DNA of 64,000 bases from Candidatus Stoquefichus sp. SB1 (GTDB lineage: Bacteria; Bacillota_I; Bacilli_A; Erysipelotrichales; Coprobacillaceae). Of the stretch, positions 38,790-55,583 are shown piece after piece. The stretch is from NCBI RefSeq assembly GCF_001244545.1, contig NZ_LN852694.1, positions 254,172 to 318,171 of the forward strand. Direction: 5' to 3'. A program made the position numbers and the translations under genes. The first letter of the stretch is position 1. Every line of letters starts with the position of its first letter. Below the pieces are notes generated by a model. The model was not told the DNA's origin. It saw only the letters and a list, made by a program, of their open reading frames with translations, and searched no databases.

Positions 38790-39380
38790 ATGCAAAAACG
38801 CAATTTTTTAGGTGGAATGGTGTTGATTTTGGGAATAGGTGCAATTATAATGAAGATGGTAAGAGGTAAAAAGACGGAGGGAAATCATATGGAAAAAGTA
38901 GAAGCAATCAAGGAAGAAGTAAATGCAAATATTAATGATGTTGCTGATTGGTTCATGTTAAAAGGTGCTATGTCAAATAAAAAAGTACAAAAATTATGCT
39001 ATTATGCACAGGCATGGAGTTTAGCTCTTTATGATTCTCCAATTGCTACGGATAGTAAATTTGAAGCGTGGGTACATGGTCCTGTTAACAAAACACTATG
39101 GAATAGGTTTAAGTGTTTTGGGTGGAGCGAATTTCAACTTACTGAGCCAGAACGTGTTAGAGAAATATTGAACACAAAATTTTCTGAAAGTCAAAATAAA
39201 ATACTCGAATCTGTTTGGGAAACTTATGGAGAATTCAGTGCTGATGAATTAGAAAAAATGACACATGAAGAAAAACCGTGGTTAGAGAAAAGAAAGGGTA
39301 TAGGAAAATTTGAAAGTTGTAATGATGAAATTTCAGAGAGTACTATGAAAGAATATTATCGCTCAAGAGTAATAGAATAA
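38790..39380 (+). CDS. Panacea-domain antitoxin with N-terminal membrane segment
   Basis: 196 residues. Residues about 45-165 match the Panacea (DUF4065, SocA/GepA-like) domain: NKKVQKLCYYAQAWSLALYD, then FEAWVHGPVNKTLWNRF and SADELEKMTHEEKPW. Panacea proteins are antitoxins for many unrelated toxins. Uniquely here, residues 5-24 form a transmembrane helix. ATG 38790 has AAAGGAG upstream; a second ATG at 38889, after GGAGGG, would make a soluble 163-residue form lacking the helix. The gene overlaps the next by one base. Confidence 0.82.
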   Translation: MQKRNFLGGMVLILGIGAIIMKMVRGKKTEGNHMEKVEAIKEEVNANINDVADWFMLKGAMSNKKVQKLCYYAQAWSLALYDSPIATDSKFEAWVHGPVNKTLWNRFKCFGWSEFQLTEPERVREILNTKFSESQNKILESVWETYGEFSADELEKMTHEEKPWLEKRKGIGKFESCNDEISESTMKEYYRSRVIE

Positions 39381-39856
39381 TGAAATTAACTAATACAAAT
39401 AAAAAAATCAACCAGAAATCAGATGATTCTCTATTAATTCAAAATGATAATAAACATAATCATCCTGAAATAAGTTTTAAATATTTATATAAATGTGATG
39501 TATGCTGCTTTAAAGGTTTAAATAAAATTGCCCGTAAGGATAGGGATCCTAGTATATTTGATGATTTACAAAAGTTTTTGAATGAGATAGATAATTGTAA
39601 TTCTTTAGAAGAAATGATAACAGATTATACATCACCAAAGGGTAGTAAAATCGATGATAGTAACAGATATATTAAAAGAATAATAAAAAAATTTGAAAAG
39701 GCTTATCCCAATGAAAAAGGGTTATTGGAATCTGGAATAATTCATATTCATACAAAGAAAAACGGAAAAGGAAGTTTTGTCATATTTGGTGTTAACTATG
39801 AAAATATATTTTATATATTAGCTTTTGACCCAAAACATCAATTTGATAAGGGGTAG
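39380..39856 (+). CDS. Putative toxin partner of the Panacea protein
   Basis: 158 residues. It starts at the last base of the antitoxin stop (TAATG). After a Gln/Asn-rich N-terminus comes YKCDVCCFKGLNKIARKDRDPS, a helical middle, and a C-terminal beta sheet, IHIHTKKNGKGSFVIFGVNYENIFYILAFDPKHQF. Short charged helices plus a terminal sheet resemble RelE/HigB-type RNase folds, but I cannot name the family. Gene order and overlap make it the likely toxin. It is the last prophage gene before attR. Confidence 0.6.
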   Translation: MKLTNTNKKINQKSDDSLLIQNDNKHNHPEISFKYLYKCDVCCFKGLNKIARKDRDPSIFDDLQKFLNEIDNCNSLEEMITDYTSPKGSKIDDSNRYIKRIIKKFEKAYPNEKGLLESGIIHIHTKKNGKGSFVIFGVNYENIFYILAFDPKHQFDKG

Positions 39857-40054: not shown

Positions 40055-40093
40055 GAGGTCAGAAAATAAGTATAATACTTAAGTTTTGACCTC
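40055..40093. terminator. Bidirectional terminator left of capsule switch
   Basis: GAGGTCA (40055-40061) pairs with TGACCTC (40087-40093), with inner AAGTAT/ATACTT. T-rich tracts follow on both strands (ATTTTGTTATATTTTT rightward; TTTTATTTAATTAT leftward). It lies in the path of the leftward promoter at 40147-40174, so transcripts made in the present orientation should stop here. Confidence 0.65.
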
Positions 40094-40116
40094 ATTTTGT
40101 TATATTTTTGTCTATA

Positions 40117-40143
40117 TTTCGTAGAACAATTAATTCTACGAAA
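40117..40143 (+). repeat. Left inversion site of the capsule switch
   Basis: Ten-base arms TTTCGTAGAA and TTCTACGAAA flank an asymmetric 7-base core, CAATTAA (40127-40133). The same architecture, with the core reversed, recurs at 40489-40515. This is the form of a tyrosine-recombinase site: palindromic arms and a directional spacer. Confidence 0.8.
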
Positions 40144-40146
40144 GCA

Positions 40147-40174
40147 ATTATAGCACATTTGGTTCATTTTTCAA
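40147..40174 (-). promoter_or_regulatory. Strong leftward promoter inside the invertible segment
   Basis: On the minus strand TTGAAA (40174-40169), 16 bp, TATAAT (40152-40147) with TGC directly before it. This extended -10 promoter points left, out of the left inversion site and away from the capsule genes. Flipping the segment would place it about 100 bp before the first capsule gene, pointing into the operon. The rest of 40175-40488 is AT-rich with only weak rightward promoter-like elements (TATAAT at 40423, no good -35). Confidence 0.7.
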
Positions 40175-40488
40175 TCAAAAATAGTATATTTTGGATGAAT
40201 TCGTATTTCTTGCTTTAACATCATTTTATCTTATCTCTATATTTAAGGATATAATCAAATATAATTTGTTAATTGATATTAATAAGAGAAGTAAGTACAC
40301 AGACAATGATTAACAATAAATAAATTTATTCAATTACTTTTTTGTTTACTATAATCTTCTCTTATAGACAATCTTTTTTACATTATATAGTGAATTTAAC
40401 TTTAACAAAATTTTGTGTCTAATATAATACTTAACTTATATGTTCAATTCTTGTTAGATAAATGAAAATTCAAGAAAGTAAGATTTCT

Positions 40489-40515
40489 TTTCGCAGAATT
40501 AATTGTTCTGCGAAA
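40489..40515 (-). repeat. Right inversion site of the capsule switch
   Basis: Arms TTTCGCAGAA and TTCTGCGAAA around core TTAATTG, the reverse complement of the left site's CAATTAA. Compared with the left site, each arm has one T-to-C change with the matching A-to-G change in the other arm, so both sites keep perfect dyads. The sites are 345 bp apart and inverted. Confidence 0.8.
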
Positions 40516-40597
40516 AATGATGAAAATGAAATTACTATTTATTTATGCATTCAACTAAGTAATTATATCAAATTCATGGATGAGGGGGCATTTACTT

Positions 40598-40828
40598 ATG
40601 GCTTTAGATGATATATATGGTCCAATTTCAAAACAAAATCAAAAATTGTTTGATGATAATGAAGAGCACATAGTAAACATGCTTGATTTTGCGATTAGGG
40701 AATTGGTAGAAATAGCTATAGATAATGAAATTGTTTTAATTAATGATTCATGTGAATGTTTAACTTATGAACAGGTTTTTAATTGTTTAAAAAGCTGGTC
40801 AAATAAGCGAATCTCAAAAGCAAAATGA
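40598..40828 (+). CDS. Short protein at head of capsule operon
   Basis: 76 residues from ATG 40598 (AGGGGGC site). MALDDIYGPISKQNQKLFDDNEEHI is followed by a helical region ending LTYEQVFNCLKSWSNKR. No family recognised. Sitting just before the LoaP-like gene, by analogy with the paired regulators of other capsule loci it may modulate antitermination. Confidence 0.5.
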   Translation: MALDDIYGPISKQNQKLFDDNEEHIVNMLDFAIRELVEIAIDNEIVLINDSCECLTYEQVFNCLKSWSNKRISKAK

Positions 40829-40829
40829 T

Positions 40830-41336
40830 ATGAACTGTTATGTCTTATATTGTCAAATAGCAAAGATAGAAAAAATCTGTAGAACACTTAATCAAAATGA
40901 AAACATTCATGCATATATTCCAAGGATGGAAAAATATATAGGGTCTAAGGATATAATCATTGATGATTATATTTTGTTTCCTGGTTATTTGTTTGTTGAA
41001 ACTGATTTCAATCAGTTGAGTTTTAATGATTTGTTAATGAGTCTTAATGAAAGAAGAGATGGTATTATCAAAGAATTAAAGAAACCAGATGTATCTGCAC
41101 TAACAGATGATGAAATTCATTTATTAGATCAATTATTAGATGAAAAGAAAGTGCTTAGAATGAGTAAGGGTTATAAACAAAATGGTAAAACTGTAATTAC
41201 ATCAGGACCATTAATTCATTTTCAAAATCAAATTAGTAAAGTCAATACAAAGGAAAGATGTGCAGTATTAAATATATCATTTTTAGATAGACCAATACTC
41301 GCATGTTTATTATTAAGGCAAGATATAGAAGCGTAG
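40830..41336 (+). CDS. loaP: LoaP/NusG-family antiterminator
   Basis: 168 residues. The NGN domain (1-110) has MNCYVLYCQIAKIEKI, IPRMEKYIGSKD and FPGYLFVETD; the C-terminal KOW-type barrel has GPLIHFQNQISKVN. It is a specialised NusG paralog of the kind that sits first in polysaccharide or antibiotic operons and lets RNA polymerase ignore terminators. A large branched terminator starts 30 bp after its stop codon, as expected for its target. Confidence 0.85.
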   Translation: MNCYVLYCQIAKIEKICRTLNQNENIHAYIPRMEKYIGSKDIIIDDYILFPGYLFVETDFNQLSFNDLLMSLNERRDGIIKELKKPDVSALTDDEIHLLDQLLDEKKVLRMSKGYKQNGKTVITSGPLIHFQNQISKVNTKERCAVLNISFLDRPILACLLLRQDIEA

Positions 41337-41434
41337 CGCAGGGGTATCCACCTACTATTCATATTTGAATATAGTTATAACAAGTCACGTAGTCAATAAG
41401 CTACGAGACTGGATAACTATATTCTTTTTTTGTT
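41337..41434 (+). terminator. Branched terminator, likely LoaP target
   Basis: GAATATAGTTAT (41367-41378) and ATAACTATATTC (41413-41424) form a perfect 12-bp stem, followed by TTTTTTT. The stem encloses a second hairpin, CGTAG/CTACG (41388-41405). Upstream is another possible hairpin around GGTATCC (41336-41356). LoaP proteins are known to act through a dual-hairpin RNA near the operon start, so this element is a good candidate both for termination and recognition. Confidence 0.75.
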
Positions 41435-41685: not shown

Positions 41686-41709
41686 TAAGGATTGGAGGGG
41701 AAATTTAAT

Positions 41710-42540
41710 ATGGGGAAAAATATGAATTATTTATATATTACAAATGACGTAAACATAGCAAAAATTTGTGATATAAACGGTGTTATACCTTGGATAGATT
41801 TAGAATATTTAGGTAAAGAAGAACGACAAAAAGGAATGAATACTGTCAAATCAAACCACTCAATTGAAGATATAAGAAAAATAAAACCGTATTTAAAAAA
41901 TAGTAAATTATTAGTAAGAATAAATCCAATAAATTTGAATTCAAAAGAAGAAATTAAAGATGTTATTGAAGCAGGAGCAGACATTATCATGCTTCCTATG
42001 TTTAAAGACGAAAAAGATGTTAAATTCTTTCTTGATACTGTAAATAATAGATGTCAAACTATGCTTTTGTTTGAAACTAAAGAATCTGTTGAAAATGTAG
42101 AACAAATTTTAAATTGTGGAAAGATAGATTATGTGCATATAGGACTTAATGATTTACATTTATCATACAAACTCAATTTCATGTTTGAATTATTGGTGAA
42201 TGGTAAAGTTGATAGATTATGTGAAACATTTAAAAATAGTAAAATACCATATGGTTTTGGTGGTATAGCAAAAATAGGATATGGAGATATTCCAGCAGAA
42301 TTCATTCTTTCAAAACATATTAAACTGCATTCATCACAAGTTATTTTATCAAGAAGTTTTTGTAATTTTGATAAATATAGTTCATATACAAGTTTTGAAA
42401 AAGATTTTAATAATGAATTATGCAAATTGCGCAAACTAGAAGAGTGTTTGAATTTTTGTGGAGATGTTTTTATTAATTCTATCATAGAAGTCACTGAAAA
42501 TAAAATAATAGATAAATCAAAGGAGAATGTAAATGTATAA
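41710..42540 (+). CDS. HpcH/HpaI aldolase family protein
   Basis: 276 residues from ATG 41710 (GGAGGGG site). TIM-barrel features: EAGADIIMLPMFKDEKDV, MLLFETKESVENVEQI with the metal-binding Glu, YVHIGLNDLHLS with the metal-binding Asp, and YGFGGIAKIG. Family members join pyruvate or oxaloacetate to aldehydes. In a capsule operon, beside an aminotransferase, it may make an unusual acid or amino-acid decoration. Overlaps the sugar transferase gene. Confidence 0.8.
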   Translation: MGKNMNYLYITNDVNIAKICDINGVIPWIDLEYLGKEERQKGMNTVKSNHSIEDIRKIKPYLKNSKLLVRINPINLNSKEEIKDVIEAGADIIMLPMFKDEKDVKFFLDTVNNRCQTMLLFETKESVENVEQILNCGKIDYVHIGLNDLHLSYKLNFMFELLVNGKVDRLCETFKNSKIPYGFGGIAKIGYGDIPAEFILSKHIKLHSSQVILSRSFCNFDKYSSYTSFEKDFNNELCKLRKLEECLNFCGDVFINSIIEVTENKIIDKSKENVNV

Positions 42541-43138
42541 AGTTTTCAAAAGAATTATAGATTTTACATTATCTTTATTTGGTTTAATAGTGCTACTATT
42601 GCCAATGGGGATTATTGCATTATTGATAAAAAAAGAAGATGGAGGACCAATTCTGTTTTTACAAGACAGAATGGGAATTAATGGACAAAAATTTAAAATA
42701 TATAAATTTAGGACGATGATAGAGAATGCTGAAAATGTAGGAACAGGATTAGATAGCTATTCAGATGATTTTCGTGTCACTAAAATAGGATATTTTTTAA
42801 GAAATACTAGTTTAGATGAAATTCCACAACTATTTAATATTTTAAAAGGTGATATGAGTATTGTTGGACCGAGACCACCTGTATATAAAACGTTCATAAA
42901 TTATCCTAATATAGACAAAAAATTTTTAATTAGATTTACAGTTAAGCCTGGAATAACAGGATTAGCACAAGTTAATGGTAGAAATGAATTGTCTTGGGAT
43001 GAAAAAATTATATATGATAAGAAATATGTTGAATCTTGTCATGGTATTGTTGGATTTATACAAGATTTAAAAATTATTTTTAAAACTATTATTAAAGTAC
43101 TGAAAAATGAAGGTGCATATGATAAAGAGGGGAATTAA
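42533..43138 (+). CDS. Priming sugar transferase (phosphoglycosyl transferase)
   Basis: 201 residues, bacterial sugar transferase family. A single N-terminal membrane segment (about 10-32), then FKIYKFRTM, NTSLDEIPQLFNILKGDMSIVGPRPP (read in parts) and KPGITGLAQVNGRNEL. It transfers a phospho-sugar to undecaprenyl phosphate, the first step of repeat-unit assembly on the inner membrane face. Confidence 0.93.
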   Translation: MYKVFKRIIDFTLSLFGLIVLLLPMGIIALLIKKEDGGPILFLQDRMGINGQKFKIYKFRTMIENAENVGTGLDSYSDDFRVTKIGYFLRNTSLDEIPQLFNILKGDMSIVGPRPPVYKTFINYPNIDKKFLIRFTVKPGITGLAQVNGRNELSWDEKIIYDKKYVESCHGIVGFIQDLKIIFKTIIKVLKNEGAYDKEGN

Positions 43139-43139
43139 G

Positions 43140-44063
43140 ATGATTAATACAATTGAAAATAGATATATATGGCTTAATGGTGAAATAATTAATTTTAAAA
43201 ATGCTCAAATAAATATTTTGTCACCTACTTCTCAATTTGGAGCAAATGTCTTTGAAGGAATTAGATGTTATTGGAATTCTGATAATAAAAAACTATATGG
43301 ATTCAGATTAGATGAACATTATTTAAGATTACAAAAATCTATTAGAATGTTAAAAATTGAAGAAAAGTATTCTTTGAAAGAAATGAAACAAGCATTGTTT
43401 GATGTTGTCAATAAAGAACAATATGATGAGGATATTGCTGTGAGACAGACTGTATTTGTTGATGGAAATGGCTCATGGTCTTCAAAAGGACCAGCTGGAA
43501 TGTTTGTTGCTCCAATTCCTAAGGGTTTATCTAGTGTGGAATATAATAAAAAAGGATTAAATTGTTGCATTTCTACATGGCGTAGAATTAGTGATCAAAA
43601 TTTATCACCAAGAATAAAATGTGGAGCAAATTATATGAATAGTAGAATGGCTCAGTTAGAGGCTTGGGATAATAATTATGATTGTGCTATTCTTTTAAAT
43701 GAAAATGGTAAACTTGCTGAAGGACCAGGCTCTTGTCTATTTATTGTTCGTGATAATAAATTGATAACTCCTTCTTTATCATCGTCAATTTTAGAATCGA
43801 TTACCCGAGATACAATAATACAAATTGCTACTGATTTAGATTTAATAGTGGTCGAAAGGGAAATTGATAGAACTGAAGTATATATTTGTGATGAAGCATT
43901 TTTATGTGGGTCAGCCATGGAAATTACTCCAATATATTCGGTTGATGGTTATGAGATTAATAATAAAATGGGAGAAATAACAAAGAAAATTTATAATTTA
44001 TATATGGATATTGTTAGAGGCAAAAATAAAAAATATATGAAATGGCTAACTGAGGTAAAATAA
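43140..44063 (+). CDS. Class IV aminotransferase (branched-chain type)
   Basis: 307 residues from ATG 43140 (AGAGGGG site). Fold type IV PLP enzyme: LSPTSQFGANVFEGIRCYW, the Schiff-base Lys in SPRIKCGANYMNS, and LNENGKLAEGPGSCLFIV. Branched-chain aminotransferases move amino groups between glutamate and 2-oxo acids. Here it is in the capsule operon directly after the aldolase and priming enzyme, so it probably aminates a 2-oxo acid used for capsule decoration. Confidence 0.85.
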   Translation: MINTIENRYIWLNGEIINFKNAQINILSPTSQFGANVFEGIRCYWNSDNKKLYGFRLDEHYLRLQKSIRMLKIEEKYSLKEMKQALFDVVNKEQYDEDIAVRQTVFVDGNGSWSSKGPAGMFVAPIPKGLSSVEYNKKGLNCCISTWRRISDQNLSPRIKCGANYMNSRMAQLEAWDNNYDCAILLNENGKLAEGPGSCLFIVRDNKLITPSLSSSILESITRDTIIQIATDLDLIVVEREIDRTEVYICDEAFLCGSAMEITPIYSVDGYEINNKMGEITKKIYNLYMDIVRGKNKKYMKWLTEVK

Positions 44064-44345
44064 TGAAAATCGTATATTGGCTCTTAATAATTTTAATTTT
44101 ATATCCATTATGCATATATCCACTATCACTATACATAATATCTATATTTTATAAGAATGAAAAAAAGGATAGATATTCTCTAGATGAACTACCTAAAATA
44201 TCATATATTGTTACAGTTTATAATGAGGAAAATGTCATTTTAAAAAAATTAGAAAATATTATGTCTTTAAAATATCCTAAGGATAAAGTTGAGTATATCA
44301 TTGCATCAGATGATAGCAATGATAAAACACACGAAATCGTAAATG

Positions 44346-44353
44346 AATATATA
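44346..44353. repeat. Left target-site duplication of the IS
   Basis: AATATATA here is identical to 45958-45965. Eight-base duplications are standard for the ISL3 family, and the perfect match shows the insertion is recent. Confidence 0.92.
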
Positions 44354-45957
44354 GGCTCTATAATTTAACTGGAGGATTTAAATAAATCTTTCAGTTTTAT
44401 TTTTTATATAAAAATAGACATAACTATAACCTTACTGTAAAATTTATGTGCTAACTAAAATTCTTTGGAGGTTATATATTATGTCCACTTCTGATTATAT
44501 CAATCTTATTCTTGAAATTCTACAAATTAATCATTTTTCTCATCTTTTTATTCCTGCTCCCTTTGATGATTCTTCTTCATGTCTTAAAAAAGTTCCTGAT
44601 TCTAACGGTGTTCTCACTTTATTCATCCATCTTAAATCTCAAGTCTCTCCTCTTGTCTGTCCTCACTGCGGTTCATATAATCATCACATATCTAAAGGAA
44701 CAAGATCTATCAATCTTAAGCATTTCTCCTTTGGCTCTCTCCCTGTCGTTCTTGTGGTTTCCTATCACAGATATATTTGTCATGACTGTTCTTCCTATTT
44801 CGTTGAAGATATTCCTTTTCAGTTTTACAATAGAAAGGCTACTATTCCTAATGTTCAGTCCGCTCTTTTTGAATTGAATGAAAATCATTCTATGGCTTCC
44901 ATCTCCAGAATGCATGGCCTTGGTAAAAATACTATGTATCGCATCTTCAGTGAAAATATCCATATTCCTGATAGATTCTATCATCTTTCCTCTGTTATCT
45001 CTATTGATGAATTTAAGGCTACCAGCGATAAGGGAACTTATGCTTTTAATATAGTCAATCCTATCACTGGTAAAACTCTTGATATTATCGAAGATAGAAA
45101 AGCTTCCTTCCTGAAAAACTATTTCCTTAGGTTTCCCTTCTCTGAAAGAAAGAAGGTTAAGTTTATCATTATGGATCTTTCTGGTCCTTTTTACTGTATT
45201 ATGCATTCTCTTTTCCCTCATGCCCAGATTATATGTGACAGGTTTCATTACGTCAGACTTGCTGGTCAGAATTTTATCCAGTCAAGACTCGATGCCTGTT
45301 CTTCTCTTCACTATCAGCCATTAGCTAAATCTATCAAAAGACAGCTTCGATTATTCTATAAATTCAGAAAAGATCTGGATAATGAAAAGACATGGTATGA
45401 TTTTCATCTGAAAAGATACTTTACCTGTGCTTCCTATATTGATTATCTTTATGATCTTAGTGAAAGAAGAAATGATAAAGACTGTGATGATAATACTATG
45501 TTCGATTCTCTTGTCATTTTAGAAATGCTTGATAACTATGAAATTTATCAGAATCTATTGAAACTTATACATGAAAAACATAATGACTACAAAAAAGAAT
45601 TAAACAGATGGCTTGATTATATCTTTGATACTCAAAATAGTTATTATCAGATAACTGCTAAAAACTTTAGAAAGAGATGGTTTATTCCTCTTTTATGTTC
45701 ATTATCCTATACAACCATATACAAAAGAAGAAACAGATCATATAGAACGAGCTTTAATAATGGATTCATTGAAGGAATGAATAATAAAATCAAACTTGTC
45801 AAAAGGAATGCATATGGTTTCAGATATTTCTACAATTTAAGAAAACGCATATTTTTACATCTTGGATATAGTTATACTTTTACTTATAAAGACAGAAAAA
45901 AAGGAATCCCTATTTTTCAATAGTTATTCCTTTATCCTCCACTCTTGACACAGAGCC
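44354..45957 (+). mobile_element. ISL3-family insertion sequence
   Basis: 1604 bp with imperfect inverted ends about 24 bp long: both start GGCTCT and share TGGAGGAT near position 17-24. It carries one transposase gene and is flanked by perfect 8-bp repeats. It lies in the same direction as the capsule operon. Confidence 0.93.
44481..45923 (+). CDS. ISL3-family transposase
   Basis: 480 residues from ATG 44481 (TTTGGAGG site). An N-terminal zinc knuckle (CPHCGSYNHHISKG and CHDCSSYF), a helical DNA-binding region, and a DDE catalytic core with SIDEFKATS, IIMDLSGPFY and CDRFHYVRL, ending near NGFIEGMNNKIKLVKR, the usual ISL3 DDE end. Codon use is richer in C than the neighbouring capsule genes. 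Appears intact and full length. Confidence 0.94.
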   Translation: MSTSDYINLILEILQINHFSHLFIPAPFDDSSSCLKKVPDSNGVLTLFIHLKSQVSPLVCPHCGSYNHHISKGTRSINLKHFSFGSLPVVLVVSYHRYICHDCSSYFVEDIPFQFYNRKATIPNVQSALFELNENHSMASISRMHGLGKNTMYRIFSENIHIPDRFYHLSSVISIDEFKATSDKGTYAFNIVNPITGKTLDIIEDRKASFLKNYFLRFPFSERKKVKFIIMDLSGPFYCIMHSLFPHAQIICDRFHYVRLAGQNFIQSRLDACSSLHYQPLAKSIKRQLRLFYKFRKDLDNEKTWYDFHLKRYFTCASYIDYLYDLSERRNDKDCDDNTMFDSLVILEMLDNYEIYQNLLKLIHEKHNDYKKELNRWLDYIFDTQNSYYQITAKNFRKRWFIPLLCSLSYTTIYKRRNRSYRTSFNNGFIEGMNNKIKLVKRNAYGFRYFYNLRKRIFLHLGYSYTFTYKDRKKGIPIFQ

Positions 45958-45965
45958 AATATATA
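45958..45965. repeat. Right target-site duplication of the IS
   Basis: AATATATA, the second copy of the 8-bp target sequence of the glycosyltransferase gene. Confidence 0.92.
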
Positions 45966-46858
45966 CAAAATCATAATGAATTAAATTTAAAATTGTATAT
46001 TGTTAAAGGACGAGTTGGAAAAACGATTGTACAGAATCAAGCAAGAAAAATATGCAGTGGAGAAATTATAGCATTTTCGGATGCAAATAGTCTTTGGAAA
46101 GATGATTCTTTATATTGGTTAATAAGTAGATTTAAAGATAAAAAAATAGGTTACATAAGTGGTAATTTACAATATATAAATTCAAGCATAGATAATACTT
46201 CCTATGCAGAAAGTAGTTATTGGAATTTTGATTTAAAAATAAGAGAAATGGAATCGTCTATTTCTAATATTGTAGGTGGAAATGGATCAATTTATGCTAT
46301 TAGAAATGAATATTATATCGATTTACCACCACTTTTATCTCATGATGGATTTATGCCAACCAAAATGGTAATAAATGGATATAATGCTAAAAGTGAACCT
46401 ATGGCTATTGCATTTGAGAAAGCAAGTGAAGATAGTAATGACGAATTTCAAAGAAAAATAAGGATGCAACGAGGACAACCTTTTAAAAAATATTATGACA
46501 TTAAAAAATTTAATGTTTTTAAATATGGATGGTTTACATATTTTTATATAGGACATAAATACTTGAAGTATTTATTATATTTATTTCATCCTGTTTTGTT
46601 AATAGTTAATTATGTCTTATTAGGTATAAATATTTTTTATGATATAACGTTTTATATGCAATTATTATTTTATTTTTTTGCTTTAGTGGGATATTTTTTG
46701 CGTAATAAAGAAACATCTGTATTATTTTATTTACCTTATCATTATTGTTTAACAATAGTTGCACAAGTTTTTTCAATTAAAAATACATTATTAGGAAAAT
46801 CTAAAGCAACATGGGAGAAATCAAAAACAACACGTCAATAATTTGGAGGAATAATCAA

Positions 46859-48025
46859 ATGAAAATCGCAGTTGCAGGGACAGGATATGTAGGACTAAGT
46901 ATCGCTACATTATTAGCACAGCATCATGATGTTGTTGCTTTAGATATTATCAGGGAAAAGGTAGATATGATTAATAATCATATCTCACCTATCCAGGATA
47001 AGGAAATTGAAGATTATTTAAAAAATAAGGATTTAACCTTAAAAGCAACTCTTGATAAAGATGTTGCTTTTAAAAATGCAAAGTTTATTGTCATCAGTAC
47101 ACCGACTAACTATGATGAGTCAAAGAACTACTTTGATACTTCAAGTGTAGAGGAAACCATTGAATCTGTATTAGAGATTAATCCACAGGCTATCATGATT
47201 ATCAAGTCAACGATACCTGTTGGATTCACGAAGCAGATGAAAGAAAAGTATGGAATAGAGAATCTGATCTTCTCACCTGAATTTTTAAGAGAAGGAAAGG
47301 CATTATATGATAATCTCTATCCTTCAAGAATTGTTGTAGGAGAGAAGTCAGAACGTGCAAGAGAGTTTGCCAATCTATTAGCTGAAGGAGCCATCAAGAA
47401 GGATATACCAGTACTGTTTACAGACAGTACAGAAGCAGAAGCAATCAAGCTGTTTGCCAATACATATCTGGCATTAAGAGTCTCATACTTCAATGAGCTT
47501 GATACCTATGCAGAGATGAAGGGACTGAATACAAAGGATATCATAGAAGGAGTATGTCTTGATCCAAGAATAGGAAGTCATTACAACAATCCATCATTTG
47601 GATATGGAGGATACTGTCTGCCAAAGGATACAAAGCAATTAAAGGCAAACTATCAGGATGTACCAGAGAACCTCATCAGTGCAATAGTGGAAAGCAACAG
47701 AACAAGAAAAGATCACATAGCACAGGAAATCATTGATAGAGGGCCTAAGGTAGTAGGAATCTATAGACTGACAATGAAGAGTGGGTCGGATAACTTTAGG
47801 GCGAGTGCAATACAGGGCATCATGAAGAGAATCAAGGCAAAGGGAATAGAAGTTGTTGTCTATGAGCCAACACTAAAGGAAGAGGAATTCTATAAAAGCA
47901 GAGTGATCAAAGAAATAGAGGAATTCAAGAAGATAAGTGATGTAGTAGTTGTCAACAGAGTGACAGAAGAGATAAGAGATGTAGAAGAGAAAATCTACAC
48001 AAGAGATCTATTTAGGAGGGATTAA
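46859..48025 (+). CDS. ugd: UDP-glucose 6-dehydrogenase
   Basis: 388 residues from ATG 46859 (TTTGGAGGAATAATC site). NAD-binding [18 protein letters not shown], then [27 protein letters not shown] and the catalytic Cys in [15 protein letters not shown]. It oxidises UDP-glucose to UDP-glucuronate, an acidic capsule precursor. From about 47230 the DNA is clearly less AT-rich than its neighbours, so this gene has a different history. A remnant of its 3' end lies at 55812-55850. Confidence 0.95.
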
Positions 48026-48026
48026 T

Positions 48027-48866
48027 ATGGATGATTCTAAGCAAGAATATAAATTTGACGATATTGCTTTATTAATTATAGGATATGATCCCTATGTTGA
48101 TGTCTGGAATCACTATTTTGATTTATTAAACAAATATTGGAAAATAAGACCAAAAACTTATTTAGCAACTAATTCCCTAACACCTGTCTATGATAATGTA
48201 GAAGTTATTCCGGTAGGTGAAAATGCAGAGTGGAGTAAAAAAGTTTATGTTGCTTCAAACAAAATAAAAGAAAAATATATAGTATTATTATTGGAAGATT
48301 TTTTTACAACAACATTTGTCAATAATGATTGCTTTGTTGAACTTTTTGATATTATCAAAAAAAATAATATTGATTATTGTAAATTATTGAATCAATCAAA
48401 AATAAAAGGCATCTGTTTTCAAAATTATAGTTATCTTCATATTATAGATAAGAATGAAAATTATGGCATAAGTCTACAACCTAGTATTTGGAATAAAGAC
48501 TTTTTGTTAACATTGCTAGGAAATGAAAATTATAATGCATGGATATTTGAATTGAATCAAATAGAAAATAAAATACAAAATGAGAAATATATCAACTGTA
48601 TTGCTGATGATAGAAATGTACTGGAAATCACCCATACTGTAGTACAGAGTAAATATTTAAGAAAAGCAGTAAGAACTTTTAAGAGACAAAAATATTATTT
48701 CAATTTAAAGGATAGAGAACAAATGTCATTATTGGAAACAGTGAAATATAGAAGTAAACTGTATTTTAGTGAATATTCACCAGCAATATTAAAAAAGCCA
48801 TTAAAGGGAATTGGAAGATTAATGGGAGTTGATTTTGTATCTGATAGGGAACTGGGAGGAAAGTAA
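48027..48866 (+). CDS. Putative glycosyltransferase, unknown subfamily
   Basis: 279 residues, starting 1 bp after ugd. A GT-A-like beginning (DDIALLIIGYDPYVDVWNHYF) with VLLLEDFFTT in the place of the nucleotide-sugar acidic motif, and a C-terminal basic region. It lies within the glycosyltransferase run, so a transfer step in repeat-unit assembly is likely. Donor and acceptor cannot be told. Confidence 0.6.
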   Translation: MDDSKQEYKFDDIALLIIGYDPYVDVWNHYFDLLNKYWKIRPKTYLATNSLTPVYDNVEVIPVGENAEWSKKVYVASNKIKEKYIVLLLEDFFTTTFVNNDCFVELFDIIKKNNIDYCKLLNQSKIKGICFQNYSYLHIIDKNENYGISLQPSIWNKDFLLTLLGNENYNAWIFELNQIENKIQNEKYINCIADDRNVLEITHTVVQSKYLRKAVRTFKRQKYYFNLKDREQMSLLETVKYRSKLYFSEYSPAILKKPLKGIGRLMGVDFVSDRELGGK

Positions 48867-48868
48867 AG

Positions 48869-49705
48869 ATGAAGATATTAGTAACAGGAGCCAATGGCTA
48901 TTTAGGTCAAGGAATTGTCAAACAATTGATTGAAGATGGTCATCAGGTAATAGCAACTGATCTATCTCTAGAAAATGTAGACAAAAGGGCTACACTGATA
49001 GAGAGTGATATATTTTCTGTTTCTCATCCATTTGAACACTTTAAAGAACCTGATGTCCTTTTACATCTGGCATGGAGAAATGGATTTGTACATAATGCAA
49101 TCAGTCATATAGAAGATTTATCATCACACTATCTGTTTATAAAACAGATGATAGAAAGTGGGCTGAAACATTTGGCTGTATTAGGTACAATGCATGAGAT
49201 TGGTTTCTATGAAGGAAGTATAAATGAAAATACACCCACAAATCCACAGAGTTTATATGGAATAGCAAAAGATGCTTTACGCAAAAGCGTCTTTTTATTA
49301 TGCAATGAAAACAAAGTCATATGTCAATGGATAAGAGGATTTTATATTGTCGGAAATACTCAATATGGATCATCAATATTTTCTAAGATAACAAAAGCAG
49401 AAAGAGAAGGACAGGATAGATTCCCTTTTACGACAGGAATAAATCAATGGGATTTTATTGACTATGAGGAGTTCTGTCAACAGATTTCATCAGTTGTCAA
49501 TCAGACAGAAATCAATGGAATAATTAATGCATGTTCAGGTTATCCAGAAAAGCTATCAGATAGAGTAGAGAGATTTATCAAAGACAATGATTTTAAAATT
49601 AGATTGGAGTATGGTGTATTTCCAGATAGAGCATATGATTCAAAAGCAGTATGGGGCGATAATACAAAGATTAATAAAATTATGGAGTTGAAAAATGAGT
49701 GGTAA
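48869..49705 (+). CDS. NAD-dependent epimerase/dehydratase
   Basis: 278 residues, extended short-chain dehydrogenase. The nucleotide site is MKILVTGANGYLGQGIV, and the catalytic YxxxK is SLYGIAKDALR. Probably changes a nucleotide-activated sugar for the capsule. Overlaps the next gene by 11 bp. Confidence 0.85.
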   Translation: MKILVTGANGYLGQGIVKQLIEDGHQVIATDLSLENVDKRATLIESDIFSVSHPFEHFKEPDVLLHLAWRNGFVHNAISHIEDLSSHYLFIKQMIESGLKHLAVLGTMHEIGFYEGSINENTPTNPQSLYGIAKDALRKSVFLLCNENKVICQWIRGFYIVGNTQYGSSIFSKITKAEREGQDRFPFTTGINQWDFIDYEEFCQQISSVVNQTEINGIINACSGYPEKLSDRVERFIKDNDFKIRLEYGVFPDRAYDSKAVWGDNTKINKIMELKNEW

Positions 49706-50531
49706 TGTATTTGTGGCAGGAGTAACTTTATATAACCCTGATTATAATGCTTTTGAAAGAATAAGGGAATATGCTCAAGTATTTGATTATATATATGTTT
49801 TTGATAATACTGAATTGTCAAATAGTAATAAAGACGAATTTGAAAATATCAGTAACATAATATATTTATCAGAGTATGAGAATATGGGATTACCATATGC
49901 TTTTAATAAAATTATAAGTAAAATGCCTGTTAATGTGAATTATTTATGTACATTAGATCAGGATAGTATTTTTAGTAAAGAAGATATTAAAAGAATTATC
50001 TATAAAATCAATCATATAGATATGACTAATATTGCAATAATGGCTCCAAAAGTTATATATCATAGTTCAAATGTTCAGATAGAAGAAAAGTTACAAAAAA
50101 GAAAATGGGTAATTACATCAGGAAGTTTTTTAAACATTAGGATTCTTAAACAAGAGAATATAAAATATGATGAAAATTATTTTATTGATAAATTTGAAAT
50201 AGATTTATGTCAGCAATTAATTAATAAAAATTATATTATATATCAATATAATGGTTCATTATTACATCAAAGATTAGGTGAAGATAGTGGACACATGCAT
50301 CCTAATCATAATCCCATAAGACACTATTATCTGTTTAGAAATAGATTTTATTTTAATAAAAAATATGTTCATTCTTTTATCAAAAGAATTATTATAAATT
50401 TTTTACAAACAGCAAGACATATATTTTTAATTGTACTATATGAAAACAAGAAGAAGAAAAAATTATCAATGTTGATGTATGCGTGGATTGATTATAAAAA
50501 AGGTGAGTTTGGAAAAGGGAAAAAGAAATAA
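49695..50531 (+). CDS. GT2 rhamnosyltransferase-like glycosyltransferase
   Basis: 278 residues. VAGVTLYNPDYNAFERI, YVFDNTELSN and LCTLDQDSIFSKEDI carry the GT2 beta-alpha-beta core and the DxD-like motif of rhamnosyltransferase-type enzymes. Cytosolic with a C-terminal hydrophobic patch. The 220 bp that follow (50532-50751) hold no gene I can see. Confidence 0.82.
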   Translation: MSGNVFVAGVTLYNPDYNAFERIREYAQVFDYIYVFDNTELSNSNKDEFENISNIIYLSEYENMGLPYAFNKIISKMPVNVNYLCTLDQDSIFSKEDIKRIIYKINHIDMTNIAIMAPKVIYHSSNVQIEEKLQKRKWVITSGSFLNIRILKQENIKYDENYFIDKFEIDLCQQLINKNYIIYQYNGSLLHQRLGEDSGHMHPNHNPIRHYYLFRNRFYFNKKYVHSFIKRIIINFLQTARHIFLIVLYENKKKKKLSMLMYAWIDYKKGEFGKGKKK

Positions 50532-50751
50532 ATTAAAGAAATTATGAGATTTGGTATTTCTTTTGTGAATGTCTAATAATTTATATTTATTATTAAAGTA
50601 ATATGTAATATATTATGTGTTCCTAAATTCAAAATATAAACGATGAATATAATAGATATTCTATTGTTTTTTGATTTGAAAGTCGAAGGGACAAAGAAGA
50701 TTAAGAGGTAATAGATTTTATAAATTTATAAAAAAGAATAGAAGGAGTTAT

Positions 50752-51822
50752 ATGAAAACAAATAGAATTATTTTTGTGTTGCCGGCTATAACGAAAAAAA
50801 TAGTTGGAGGATATAAAATGGTATACACATATGCTAATTATTTGTCGGAAAATGGGTATGCGGTGTGTATTTTTTATGATTGCAACAGAGGAAAGAATAG
50901 CAAAAATATACCCGGTTTTATATGCGTTTTAGTAAGAAAAATATTGTGCATTTTAGAACCTACATGGTATAAGTTAAATGAAACTATACAAAAAAAATCG
51001 ATTTATAATATCAATAAAAAATATTTTTGTAATGATGATATTATTTTTGCAACAAGTGTATATACATCTATAAAACTTAAAGAAATAAATAATGTTTATA
51101 AAAAATTATATTTTATACAAGATTTTGAAAATTGGTCATTGGAGGATAGGTATGTAAAAGAAACTTATTCATTTGGTTTTATTAACATTGTAGTTTCAAA
51201 ATGGCTCAAAAAAATTGTAGAAGAAAATTCTAAAACTGATGCTATTTATATTCCCAATGGAGTGGATGATTCAAAGTTTAAAATTATGACACCTATTGAT
51301 GAAAGACCTAAGTTATCAGTTGCAATGTTATATCATACCAATGAAAGAAAAAACAGTAAAATGGGTTTGAAAATATTAAAAACGCTTAAAGAAAAATATC
51401 CAGAATTAAATGCAGATTTATTTGGAAGTATTCCAAGACCAGAATTTCTCCCCAGTTGGATAAATTATATTGAAAAAGCATCTGAAAAAGAAGTTGTTCA
51501 AATATATAATAGAAATACATTTTTTTTGTGTACAAGCTCTGTTGAAGGATATGGGTTAACAGGATTAGAAAGTTTGTTTTGTGGATGTTGCTTAATTTCA
51601 ACTAACTGTTTAGGAGTAGAAGAATATGCAAAGAATGGATTTAACTGTTTATTGTCTGAGCCTAAAGATGAGGAAGCAATGTTAAAAAATATTGTTATTG
51701 CCATTGAAAATGACAATTTAAGAAGGCAATTAACAAAGAACTCAAAAGAATTAATCAATAATTATAAACTTGATAAATCAAAGCAACTGTTTGCGGAACT
51801 AATTAAAGAAGTAATTAGGTAA
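50752..51822 (+). CDS. GT4-family glycosyltransferase
   Basis: 356 residues, GT-B fold. IIFVLPAITKKIVGGYKMVYTYANYL, read in parts, opens the acceptor domain; IPNGVDDSKF and SVEGYGLTGLESLFCG give the donor-site EX7E-like region. AGAAGGAG ribosome site. Adds one sugar to the lipid-linked repeat. Confidence 0.87.
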   Translation: MKTNRIIFVLPAITKKIVGGYKMVYTYANYLSENGYAVCIFYDCNRGKNSKNIPGFICVLVRKILCILEPTWYKLNETIQKKSIYNINKKYFCNDDIIFATSVYTSIKLKEINNVYKKLYFIQDFENWSLEDRYVKETYSFGFINIVVSKWLKKIVEENSKTDAIYIPNGVDDSKFKIMTPIDERPKLSVAMLYHTNERKNSKMGLKILKTLKEKYPELNADLFGSIPRPEFLPSWINYIEKASEKEVVQIYNRNTFFLCTSSVEGYGLTGLESLFCGCCLISTNCLGVEEYAKNGFNCLLSEPKDEEAMLKNIVIAIENDNLRRQLTKNSKELINNYKLDKSKQLFAELIKEVIR

Positions 51823-51860
51823 TATCAAGAAAGTTTATAATTGGTATATAGGGGGTAATT

Positions 51861-53138
51861 ATGTTAATTATAGGAATTCTTTTGTGCTTTTTTTTATCTA
51901 TTTTTTATTTTAAAAAAAGTATTTTTAATCCAGAATGTATATTCACATTCTCTTTTTTTCTTTTATTATTATTAACAAATTTAGGATTATATGATCTATA
52001 TTCACCAAGTGATGAGGCAATAACAATTATAATAATTGGTATTATATTTTTTTGTTTAGGTGGAGTTTTATATAAAGCGTTATTTAAAGTCAAGATAAGA
52101 AAGAATGAATATATAAGGTTTGATAATATTTTTCAGGGTATATCAAAGTATTATAATAGGTTCATAATTTTAATAATAATAGCAATAATATTTGAAATTA
52201 TGTATGCATCAAATTCTATTAGATATTTATTGCAAGGTAATAATCTATATTCATTGAGGTACATGGATTTGGACACGATTATGTCACAGTCACATTTTTG
52301 GTCATTATTATATACATATTTTTCTATACCTGTTCTTTTCATTTTAATGCCAATAGCATGCTATGAATTTTTTGTAAACAGACAATCATTATTACTTATA
52401 TTGACTTTAATAGCAACTGTAATTTATTTTTTTTCTAATGGTGCGAGATTACCATTTGTTTATTTTGCTATGAATATCTTAATATGCTTTCTATTAAATA
52501 AACGAAGTATAAGAAGTAATAAAAATTTAAAAAAAATAGTTTTTTTTTCAATTATAGTGGTGTTTTTTATAGCTATAATTTCAAATGTGCGTTCAGCAAG
52601 TGTAAATAATGATTATGACTTTTTTAAATCAATGTACCGCTATATTACTGGGAGTACAATCAACATGAGTGAAAAAATTAAGTATATACAGTTACATAAA
52701 TTTGGAACTTATGGTGCGGCAACTTTATACGGTATTTTTAATTTGTTAGATAAATTTTATAGTCTAATAATGAATAACTCATTAACAGTAATAAAAGAAG
52801 CGATGAATTTCTTAGAGGTGATTCAAACAGAATTAATATATATTAATGATGGAGGAAATCTCTATAATTTTTGTACCACAGGTTTTTTGTTTTTCTATGT
52901 TGATTTTGGCATTATAGGAGTTATGTCATTTAGTTGTATGTATGGTTTTATATGTAATTTAATATATCATAAACTTTTGAAATATAGTAATCTAAAATAT
53001 TATCTTTTATATGTTTTTATATTAGAATCACTTGTAATGTTTATGATTACAGATTTATTTTCAGTTGTACCATTTATGATGGCAATAATATATGTCTGGC
53101 TATTTGGAAAAAAATATAAAATGAAAGCAAGGTGTTGA
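51861..53138 (+). CDS. wzy: Wzy-like repeat-unit polymerase
   Basis: 425 residues with about ten to twelve hydrophobic helices and a larger loop around residues 250-330, the layout of O-antigen/capsule polymerases. RYLLQGNNLYSLRYMD and NGARLPFVYFAMN fit the oligosaccharide repeat unit polymerase group. It would join repeat units on the outer face of the membrane. Confidence 0.8.
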   Translation: MLIIGILLCFFLSIFYFKKSIFNPECIFTFSFFLLLLLTNLGLYDLYSPSDEAITIIIIGIIFFCLGGVLYKALFKVKIRKNEYIRFDNIFQGISKYYNRFIILIIIAIIFEIMYASNSIRYLLQGNNLYSLRYMDLDTIMSQSHFWSLLYTYFSIPVLFILMPIACYEFFVNRQSLLLILTLIATVIYFFSNGARLPFVYFAMNILICFLLNKRSIRSNKNLKKIVFFSIIVVFFIAIISNVRSASVNNDYDFFKSMYRYITGSTINMSEKIKYIQLHKFGTYGAATLYGIFNLLDKFYSLIMNNSLTVIKEAMNFLEVIQTELIYINDGGNLYNFCTTGFLFFYVDFGIIGVMSFSCMYGFICNLIYHKLLKYSNLKYYLLYVFILESLVMFMITDLFSVVPFMMAIIYVWLFGKKYKMKARC

Positions 53139-53139
53139 T

Positions 53140-54570
53140 ATGAAAATACAAGTTACTAAATCAGATGTGATTTGGAATTATATAGGAATAATAGTTTCTT
53201 TGGGTTCAAACTTTATTTTAATTCCATTTCTTATAGCTTTTCTAGATACAGATATGTATGGACTTTGGAATGTTTTTATTAGTCTAGGTGCTATATCAAA
53301 TTTATTTGATTTTGGATTTAATTCTATCTTTTCTCGTAATGTTGCATATTGTTGGAGTGGTGTCAACGAATTAAAAAAAGAGGATGTGGTTATTTCTGAA
53401 AAAAACAGCAAAACAAACTATAAGCTAATGAAACAAGTTATAAAAACTTGCCAAATTATATATTCGATTATTTCATCTGTTGCATTTATGATGCTTGCAC
53501 TGTTTGGAAGCATATATATTTTATCAATTAGTTCTTATTTAAATAATAATATAATAATTTTAGTTGCTTGGATTTTATATGCATTGGGAATATTTTTTAA
53601 TCTTTTATATGGATATTTTGATTCCTTTTTACGAGGAATTGGTAAAATTGGTGCTGTTAATAAAATCAGGACCTTTACAAAGATAGTACAAATGGTAATG
53701 ACTGTTATATTATTATATTGTGGTTTAGGAATTATTAGTGCATCTATAGCTTATATTATTAGTGGATTAATCTTTAGGTTTACATGTAAAAGGATATTTT
53801 ATCAGTACTCAAATATAGGTGAGAAAATGCAAAACGAACCTAATCCTACAAAAAAGGAAATATATAATACATTTACAATTGTATGGCACAATGCATGGAA
53901 AGAAGGTGTTGTATCTTTATCTAACTATATAAGTAATCAAGCGACAACATTACTATGTGCTTCTTTCTTGACTCTTACAGAAGTTGGAAAGTATAGTTTG
54001 GCTGTTCAATTAACTTCGGCAGTTGGTCAAATATCTACTGCATTATTTGCCTCATATCAACCATCTTTTCAAGAAGCATATACTCATAGGAATTTTGATT
54101 ATATTAGGAAATATCTTTCATTTTCGATGACTATATATATTCTGTTATTCTTTTTAGGAATAACAGGAATAGTCATAGTTGTCATACCAATATTGCAATA
54201 TGTTCGACCAAATGCAATAGTGGATATTGTAGTTTTATTTGAGATTGCTTTTTATCAATTCATCTTAAAATATAGAGATTGTTATTCATGGTATTTAGCA
54301 GGGACAAATAGATTATATTATACTAAATCATTTGTCTTTTCTTCTATATTTTGTCTTTGTTTATCGTTAATTTTATTAAAATTTTATAATTTAGGAATAT
54401 TTGGCCTCGTGATAGCCCAATTAATAAGTCAGCTAATTTTTAATGCTTGGTACTGGCCAATAGTGGTTGATAGAGAATTAAAATTAGACTTTTTAAGTAA
54501 AATAAAATGTTTTGTAATGGTATGTAGAGAATATTTAAATGTGATTTTTATATCAAAAGGTAATGAATAA
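53140..54570 (+). CDS. wzx: Wzx-like flippase
   Basis: 476 residues, about twelve to fourteen transmembrane helices. ITKSDVIWNYIG-type start, FIPFLIAFLDTDMYGLWNVF-like segment and the paired six-helix bundles match the polysaccharide exporter family. It follows the polymerase by 1 bp. It should flip the finished lipid-linked repeat to the outer face. Confidence 0.88.
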   Translation: MKIQVTKSDVIWNYIGIIVSLGSNFILIPFLIAFLDTDMYGLWNVFISLGAISNLFDFGFNSIFSRNVAYCWSGVNELKKEDVVISEKNSKTNYKLMKQVIKTCQIIYSIISSVAFMMLALFGSIYILSISSYLNNNIIILVAWILYALGIFFNLLYGYFDSFLRGIGKIGAVNKIRTFTKIVQMVMTVILLYCGLGIISASIAYIISGLIFRFTCKRIFYQYSNIGEKMQNEPNPTKKEIYNTFTIVWHNAWKEGVVSLSNYISNQATTLLCASFLTLTEVGKYSLAVQLTSAVGQISTALFASYQPSFQEAYTHRNFDYIRKYLSFSMTIYILLFFLGITGIVIVVIPILQYVRPNAIVDIVVLFEIAFYQFILKYRDCYSWYLAGTNRLYYTKSFVFSSIFCLCLSLILLKFYNLGIFGLVIAQLISQLIFNAWYWPIVVDRELKLDFLSKIKCFVMVCREYLNVIFISKGNE

Positions 54571-54587
54571 CTTAGGAAGGAGAAAAA

Positions 54588-55583
54588 ATGGATAATAAAT
54601 TTAAAGTTGCAATAATTTTACCATATTTTGGTAAATTACCCAATTATTTTCAGTTATGGATCAAATCTGCTGAGATGAATAAAGATTTTGATTTTTTAAT
54701 TTTTACAGATAATACAAATGTGTATACTTGTTCTGAAAATATAAAATGGCATATTTGTGAATTCAAAGACATTGTCAATAAGGTACAGAAATTTTTTGAT
54801 TTTAAAATTATTTTAAATAGACCATATAAATTATGTGATTATAAGCCAATGTATGGTCTGATTTTTTCTGATTATTTAAAGAATTATGATTGGTGGGGAC
54901 ATTGTGATTCAGATTTGATATTCGGAAATTTAAGTTCAAAAATTACAAGTGAAGTTTTAAATCTGTACGAAAAAATATATCAATTAGGACATTTAACATT
55001 ATACAAAAATAATAAAAAAATGAATAATTTATGGAGAGTCATTCTTGCTAAAGAAGCTTATAGTTTTAAGGAAGCTTATAGAACACGTTATCCTACTCAT
55101 TTTGATGAGCAATTAGGAATGACTAAGATTGCTATTGCATCTAATATAAAAACATATAATAATATTGATTTTGCAGATATGAGAGTAGATGTTCCTGGTT
55201 TTCAAAGATGTTGGGATGTAAACAGTGGGCATCTTCCTCATATATTTTCATGGAATAATGGGAAATTATATGGGTATTATGTTGATGAAAATAAAGAAAT
55301 CACAAAAAAAGAGTACATTTATATACATTTGCAAAAAAGGAAAATGTTAATAAATGAATATAAAAATTCTGATTGTAAAGATATGTTGATAATTCCAAAT
55401 GCATTTATTAACTATGAAAAAGAAAAAATAAATAGTAATTACATCATCTATGTAAATGAATCTATAAAAGCAGAACAAAATAGCAGCATAAAACAAATTA
55501 AAATACGTTTTAAAAATCTTTTATTAGGATCATTAAAAAACAAATATATTCGATGGAAAAAAGAGATTGTTGTACCTAGGTAA
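54588..55583 (+). CDS. DUF6625 glycosyltransferase-like protein
   Basis: 331 residues. VAIILPYFGKLPNYFQLWIKSAE, LNRPYKLCDYKPMYGLIF and WWGHCDSDLIFGNL with a DSD motif match DUF6625, a GT-A-like family in capsule loci. AAGGAGAAAAA site. Likely the last transfer enzyme of the operon. It is followed by 304 bp that hold only the ugd remnant. Confidence 0.82.
   Translation: MDNKFKVAIILPYFGKLPNYFQLWIKSAEMNKDFDFLIFTDNTNVYTCSENIKWHICEFKDIVNKVQKFFDFKIILNRPYKLCDYKPMYGLIFSDYLKNYDWWGHCDSDLIFGNLSSKITSEVLNLYEKIYQLGHLTLYKNNKKMNNLWRVILAKEAYSFKEAYRTRYPTHFDEQLGMTKIAIASNIKTYNNIDFADMRVDVPGFQRCWDVNSGHLPHIFSWNNGKLYGYYVDENKEITKKEYIYIHLQKRKMLINEYKNSDCKDMLIIPNAFINYEKEKINSNYIIYVNESIKAEQNSSIKQIKIRFKNLLLGSLKNKYIRWKKEIVVPR

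Follow-up and report, generated by a model that had tools for sequence, protein, structure and literature searches.

A predicted invertible promoter ahead of a LoaP-type capsule operon in Candidatus Stoquefichus sp. SB1

How might a Gram-positive gut commensal switch a capsule operon on and off? The question is raised by positions 40117–40515 of a 64,000-nucleotide stretch of the Candidatus Stoquefichus sp. SB1 genome (contig NZ_LN852694.1; the whole stretch is called the window here), where a first-pass annotation had proposed an invertible promoter in front of a capsule operon. On the sequence comparisons described below, this element is very probably a phase-variable promoter switch (an inverton) for that operon: related loci carry the segment flipped, ON forms stand before homologous LoaP-type operons, the sites are conserved and a recombinase is associated with them.

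The segment is bounded by two 27-bp sites. The left site (40117–40143, plus strand) reads TTTCGTAGAA-CAATTAA-TTCTACGAAA and the right site (40489–40515, minus strand) reads TTTCGCAGAA-TTAATTG-TTCTGCGAAA. They are inverted with respect to each other and 345 bp apart, and their 7-bp cores are exact reverse complements. The first-pass annotation had described two facing sites with 10-bp arms, reverse-complementary cores and this spacing, and its positions and sequence are reproduced. No other perfect 10-7-10 dyad occurs in the window, and the 345 bp that the pair encloses (40144–40488), the predicted invertible segment, are free of genes. The annotation had also taken a compensated arm pair (T/A in one site, C/G in the other) as proof that the dyad is maintained, which is weak evidence: at this variable arm position, 46 of 155 distinct exact sites (30%) carry an unmatched combination, and 70% are matched compared with 52% expected under independence. 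The sequences favour reading the dyad as a pair of half-sites for recombinase binding over reading it as a stem held by base pairing.

A strong extended −10 promoter, TTGAAA-N16-TGCTATAAT, lies beside the left site on the minus strand (40147–40174), with its −10 element (40152–40147) 3 bp inside that site. As the annotation had claimed, it points leftward, away from the capsule operon, and the assembly shows the OFF orientation; ON and OFF were scored at all invertons by promoter consensus. The window locus has the arrangement that defines an inverton, with inverted sites around a promoter upstream of a gene. The left site is flanked on its outer side by a hairpin terminator (40055–40105; GAGGTCA...TGACCTC with flanking T and A runs), which folds at −22.8 and −18.2 kcal/mol on the two strands. 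Hairpins occupy the equivalent position outside a site at the other five invertons of this genome and in the relative G036. The window hairpin is likely to stop both read-through from upstream and the outward transcript of the OFF state.

Scanning the complete genome (G000, 3.59 Mb) with the 27-bp motif yields six inverted site pairs, with cores CAATTAA, CTCAATA, CTTTATA, CTTCTTA, TACAATA and TAATCTA. The cores are alike at 7/7 positions within each pair and differ by at least two bases between pairs. All six invertons have the same extended −10 promoter, placed 2–3 bp within the site farther from the operon; downstream come LoaP/NusG-like genes and then polysaccharide genes, and in the assembly every one of the promoters is OFF. 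With one mismatch or fewer, the motif occurs at 10 places in the genome, compared with none for a reversed control; with three or fewer, it occurs at 14, compared with 8. The genome is thus predicted to carry at least six segments, each with a promoter before a different surface-polysaccharide cluster and each flipped by a recombinase. At a seventh locus (C2:213398), a single decayed site occurs together with the locus's own recombinase and a LoaP-like gene. In the C5 inverton (L144:7566–10898), 1666 bp are perfectly duplicated with one N between the copies, probably a scaffolding artefact that inflates the 4.4-kb length of this inverton.

A search of relatives for the opposite orientation between the same flanks, which the annotation had suggested, found flipped segments between collinear flanks. 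In an all-against-all comparison of loci, the segment is flipped relative to its flanks in 20 locus pairs, the weaker of which are supported by one flank only, and has the same orientation in 62. Among the flipped Lachnospiraceae segments (L087/L130, L098/L115 and L066/L127), the first two pairs are the clearest, with both flanks collinear and the segment reversed. The ON form is found before LoaP-like operons in G036, where promoter, site and NusG-like gene directly follow one another; in Beduini (G007), where the enclosed recombinase gene is reversed as well; and in an Erysipelotrichales metagenome-assembled genome (L110/G192). The sites, whose lack of conservation in position or dyad form the annotation had named as grounds for abandoning the switch, are kept in both respects across related loci. 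In several draft genomes, one isolate included, contig ends lie 0–4 bp from a site, a pattern that a mixture of the two orientations in the sample would produce.

Which enzyme would turn the segment? The reading of the dyads as recombinase sites is supported by a tyrosine recombinase (PF00589) strongly associated with them by position, co-occurrence and phylogeny. Invertons of about 1.0–1.8 kb almost always enclose its gene, and those of about 150–400 bp contain hardly more than a promoter; orthologous loci can take either form, an empty 165-bp inverton in the SB1 genome corresponding to one of 1186 bp with a recombinase gene in the relative G001. Sites are present in 11 of 43 genomes of the family, and a recombinase match of at least 260 bits is found in 10 of these 11 compared with 1 of the 32 others (Fisher p = 6e-8), a threshold set after the data had been seen; a rank test, which is independent of the threshold, gives p = 7e-6 across the 43 genomes. 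In the tree, the inverton recombinases form a near-exclusive clade, and the catalytic residues R151, K197, H262, R265, H288 and Y298 are invariant in 12 recombinase proteins. The predicted fold is like that of Tn1549 Int, minus the arm-binding domain. The best recombinase of G036 is encoded about 1 Mb away from the inverton and has no site alongside, which implies action in trans. Taken together, these comparisons suggest that the invertase of the window switch is most likely the tyrosine recombinase encoded in the C5 inverton (G000 C5:468690–469637), acting in trans. Elsewhere in this genome, three tyrosine recombinase genes stand in tandem (G000 C4:625060–627484).

Inversion could also be real and be carried out by one of two other tyrosine recombinases, C2:212316 or C6:660697. 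Both fall within the inverton-recombinase part of the tree, and C2:212316 precedes a LoaP-like gene. We consider this assignment unlikely, given that the C5 protein is the closest to the site-adjoining recombinases of the same family and that a single, degenerate site lies near C2:212316.

Several observations nonetheless weigh against a switch driven by the C5 recombinase at this locus. The presence of these two further relatives of the clade in the genome is one of them, and an IS30-like insertion upstream of the presumed C5 recombinase gene is another. Both orientations are known from loci of relatives, and the window segment itself from one assembly of one strain. ON is rare in assemblies, as all six switches of this genome and 21 of the 24 NusG-linked invertons with a readable promoter are OFF, an excess that could come from a switch with a bias or from cells making no more than one capsule at a time. 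The window operon may be partly degraded, because the first NusG-like gene (NusG1) is missing, two such genes standing in tandem at most loci, and because an ISL3 transposase (44448–45923) breaks up the polysaccharide genes.

The uniform OFF state, the IS30-like insertion, the absence of NusG1 and the ISL3 transposase in the operon would all suit a relic, in which sites and promoter are locked in a non-invertible remnant and the operon is permanently off, and in the relative G035 the recombinase is indeed broken and the sites have decayed. Such a relic is very improbable here: both window sites are perfect and their cores exactly matched, which decay would erase, the recombinase open reading frame is intact with all catalytic residues kept, and the other five pairs in the genome are intact or nearly so. 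Finally, we reject, as having practically no chance of being right, the proposal that there is no switch and that the dyads are a hairpin/terminator pair or look-alike protein-binding operators, since, although each site is a perfect dyad able to fold in RNA and the variable arm position pairs correctly in 70% of sites, neither structure needs cores that are reverse-complementary within pairs and different between them, and the flipped homologues and the adjacent recombinase would go unexplained.

The phase-variable promoter switch would operate as follows. The tyrosine recombinase would bind the 10-bp arms of both sites and swap strands within the 7-bp core; with identical cores in inverted orientation, the outcome would be an inversion of the 345 bp. 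In the OFF orientation, the promoter would fire outward into the terminator and the capsule operon would be silent. In the ON orientation, the promoter would come to lie at a distance of 3 bp from the right site. Its transcript would cover a gene for an 82-residue protein and that for a LoaP-like antiterminator, which would take RNA polymerase past the leader terminator, allowing the polysaccharide genes to be transcribed. Since the arms are common to the six switches, one enzyme could serve all of them, and the different cores would confine recombination to each site's own pair. We infer the inversion of the window segment, its enzyme, the action of LoaP on the leader and the part played by the core in specificity; comparison supports the inversion step, and the known action of LoaP together with the conserved leader lends support to the LoaP step.

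The first gene downstream of the switch (40580–40828, plus strand) encodes the 82-residue protein, which has no match in Pfam, NCBIfam or PHROG and is not assigned to a family. Of 195 other genomes in the order, 5 have a homologue, and in G002 and G035 the homologue lies between two NusG-like genes; the family could be a small regulator of antiterminators. The next gene (40830–41336, plus strand) encodes a NusG paralogue (PF02357, 32 bits). The annotation had named a LoaP regulator, and antiterm_LoaP (NF033641) is indeed the best NCBIfam model for this protein, but its score of 87 bits is under the cut-off of 125, and we therefore call the protein LoaP-like. It is followed by a leader RNA (41333–41432, plus strand) in which, by folding and leader alignment, a small hairpin precedes an intrinsic terminator (arms 41367–41378 and 41413–41424, plus a T run). 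Hairpin and terminator are present in all aligned loci, and the leader is presumed to be the target of the LoaP-like antiterminator. An Rfam search gave chance matches only. An element resembling TTTACTTGGGGTAGGGGAAACT is common to the leaders of L143, L144, L145, L146, L147 and L165, where it lies within the terminator or ahead of it. The loop of the window leader is unlike that of these leaders, so its antiterminator may have an RNA specificity of its own.

The polysaccharide operon itself (41692–55583, plus strand; Pfam and NCBIfam assignments) encodes an HpcH/HpaI-type aldolase, a sugar transferase, an aminotransferase of class IV, glycosyltransferases, a UDP-glucose/GDP-mannose dehydrogenase, an epimerase and a Wzx-like flippase. 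On the other side of the switch, a SocA/Panacea-domain antitoxin-like gene is followed by a gene for a 158-residue protein without any match (38790–39856). This pair, a candidate toxin–antitoxin pair, closes a prophage-like stretch that adjoins the switch.

How far does the site family extend? A pattern scan of named genomes found at least 119 stretches, mostly in Lachnospiraceae and other gut Clostridia, and the matches listed also include the Erysipelotrichia Beduini and Candidatus Stoquefichus massiliensis, the site of the latter being that of its genus mate G001. Among 295 genomes of the order, sites occur in the SB1 family and in one other genome only, and a reversed control motif has no match in the 43 family genomes. 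No viral contig matched the 27-bp pattern or encoded a relative of the window LoaP-like gene; the viral contigs thus gave no sign of a phage origin or of the flipped segment at a prophage flank.

Over all loci, nearest pairs comprise 96 inverted pairs with identical (7/7) cores, 1 direct pair and 2 chance pairs, alongside 36 single sites. At the orthologous locus where G001 has the recombinase-bearing inverton, both cores have altered together, by one base each: CTTCTTA in SB1 and CTACTTA in G001. Core orthogonality as a general rule is unsupported, with cores being identical in 3.7% of comparisons within genomes and 0.5% between them. At L101, sites at 1110, 2545 and 3293 share one core, two in direct and one in inverted orientation, so that deletion would be possible there besides inversion.

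Is this a known system? Phase variation of several capsules through invertible promoters is characteristic of Bacteroides, and Mpi of Bacteroides fragilis is a serine recombinase. Like the Mpi/UpxY system of B. fragilis, the SB1 genome has several capsule operons, each behind a promoter that is invertible or, in SB1, predicted to be so, with a NusG-paralogue antiterminator early in the operon and one enzyme expected for many loci. Unlike that system, it pairs a tyrosine recombinase with a LoaP-like protein in place of a serine recombinase and UpxY, has the presumed recombinase gene inside one inverton, and uses 27-bp sites with pair-specific 7-bp cores. Because the enzyme class differs, the window switch is not a member of the Mpi system. 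The closest solved structures by fold are integrases of the Tn1549/Tn916 type (Tn1549 Int), which have the same catalytic residues; in contrast to these, the SB1 enzyme, at 316 residues, has no room for an N-terminal arm-binding domain and adjoins inversion sites rather than transposon ends.

Other comparisons come from Firmicutes. In Clostridia, orientation changes have been seen in reads for PhaseFinderDC inverton group 139 with tyrosine invertase group 35 (PMC11892184). Almost all invertons of that clostridial group have a tyrosine recombinase next to them, a point of likeness to the present family; the main text of that paper names no LoaP or capsule link and no Erysipelotrichia for the group (PMC11892184). 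Judged by its description, group 139 may be the same site family as the window sites. As proposed here, RecV of Clostridioides difficile, also a tyrosine recombinase, works in trans on several invertons of a Firmicute, but the repeats there are described as mutually unrelated except Cdi2/Cdi5, whereas here the arms are common to all pairs (PMC5903667). LoaP of Bacillus velezensis is a NusG paralogue with a hairpin-plus-terminator leader like the one predicted here (PMC12691694); the window locus differs in its sub-cut-off score and in having a polysaccharide operon as its presumed target, and most related loci differ in having two NusG-like genes in tandem. A search of the open-access literature found no description of LoaP-linked invertible capsule promoters in Erysipelotrichia, and a text search for the arm sequences gave chance matches, with no inversion topic among those listed. 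The logic of multi-locus capsule invertons is known from Bacteroides; the version with a tyrosine recombinase and a LoaP-like protein appears to be new.

In Lachnospiraceae, sites of the same family are also found with a different type of downstream gene. TnpB-like proteins are encoded directly downstream of sites at L098:3625–4995, L061:4428–5795, L127:4533–5924, L040:1288–2709, L137:5396–6763 and about 20 more Lachnospiraceae loci. They match the Pfam family Cas12f1-like TNB, and the best Foldseek matches are Cas12f/TnpB (E ~1e-7, from a model with a low predicted local distance difference test score (pLDDT) of 68). An alignment of 22 copies shows the zinc ribbon kept and the catalytic acids of RuvC apparently lost. 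In this they resemble nuclease-dead TnpB-derived regulators, and they may be phase-variable and possibly RNA-guided regulators. We tentatively put forward, at somewhat less than even chances, a Firmicute-wide inversion platform in which a common recombinase and site chassis carries swappable cores and output regulators: LoaP-like proteins and capsules in genomes of the Coprobacillaceae type, and dead TnpB-like proteins near surface-polysaccharide genes in Lachnospiraceae. The recombinase would reside in one unit and serve the others in trans, coordinating the choice of capsule.

For the organism, the finding would mean a Gram-positive gut commensal with Bacteroides-like capsule logic built from other parts, at six loci of a single genome, and each capsule, if this is true, could be switched on and off. 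Many other gut Firmicutes have switches of this design, for which both orientations are known, and the sites can be predicted in any genome from a 27-base pattern. The pair-specific cores offer a candidate set of recombination sites for one small recombinase, and both capsule switching in Firmicutes and its part in evading phages and adapting to the host become directly testable.
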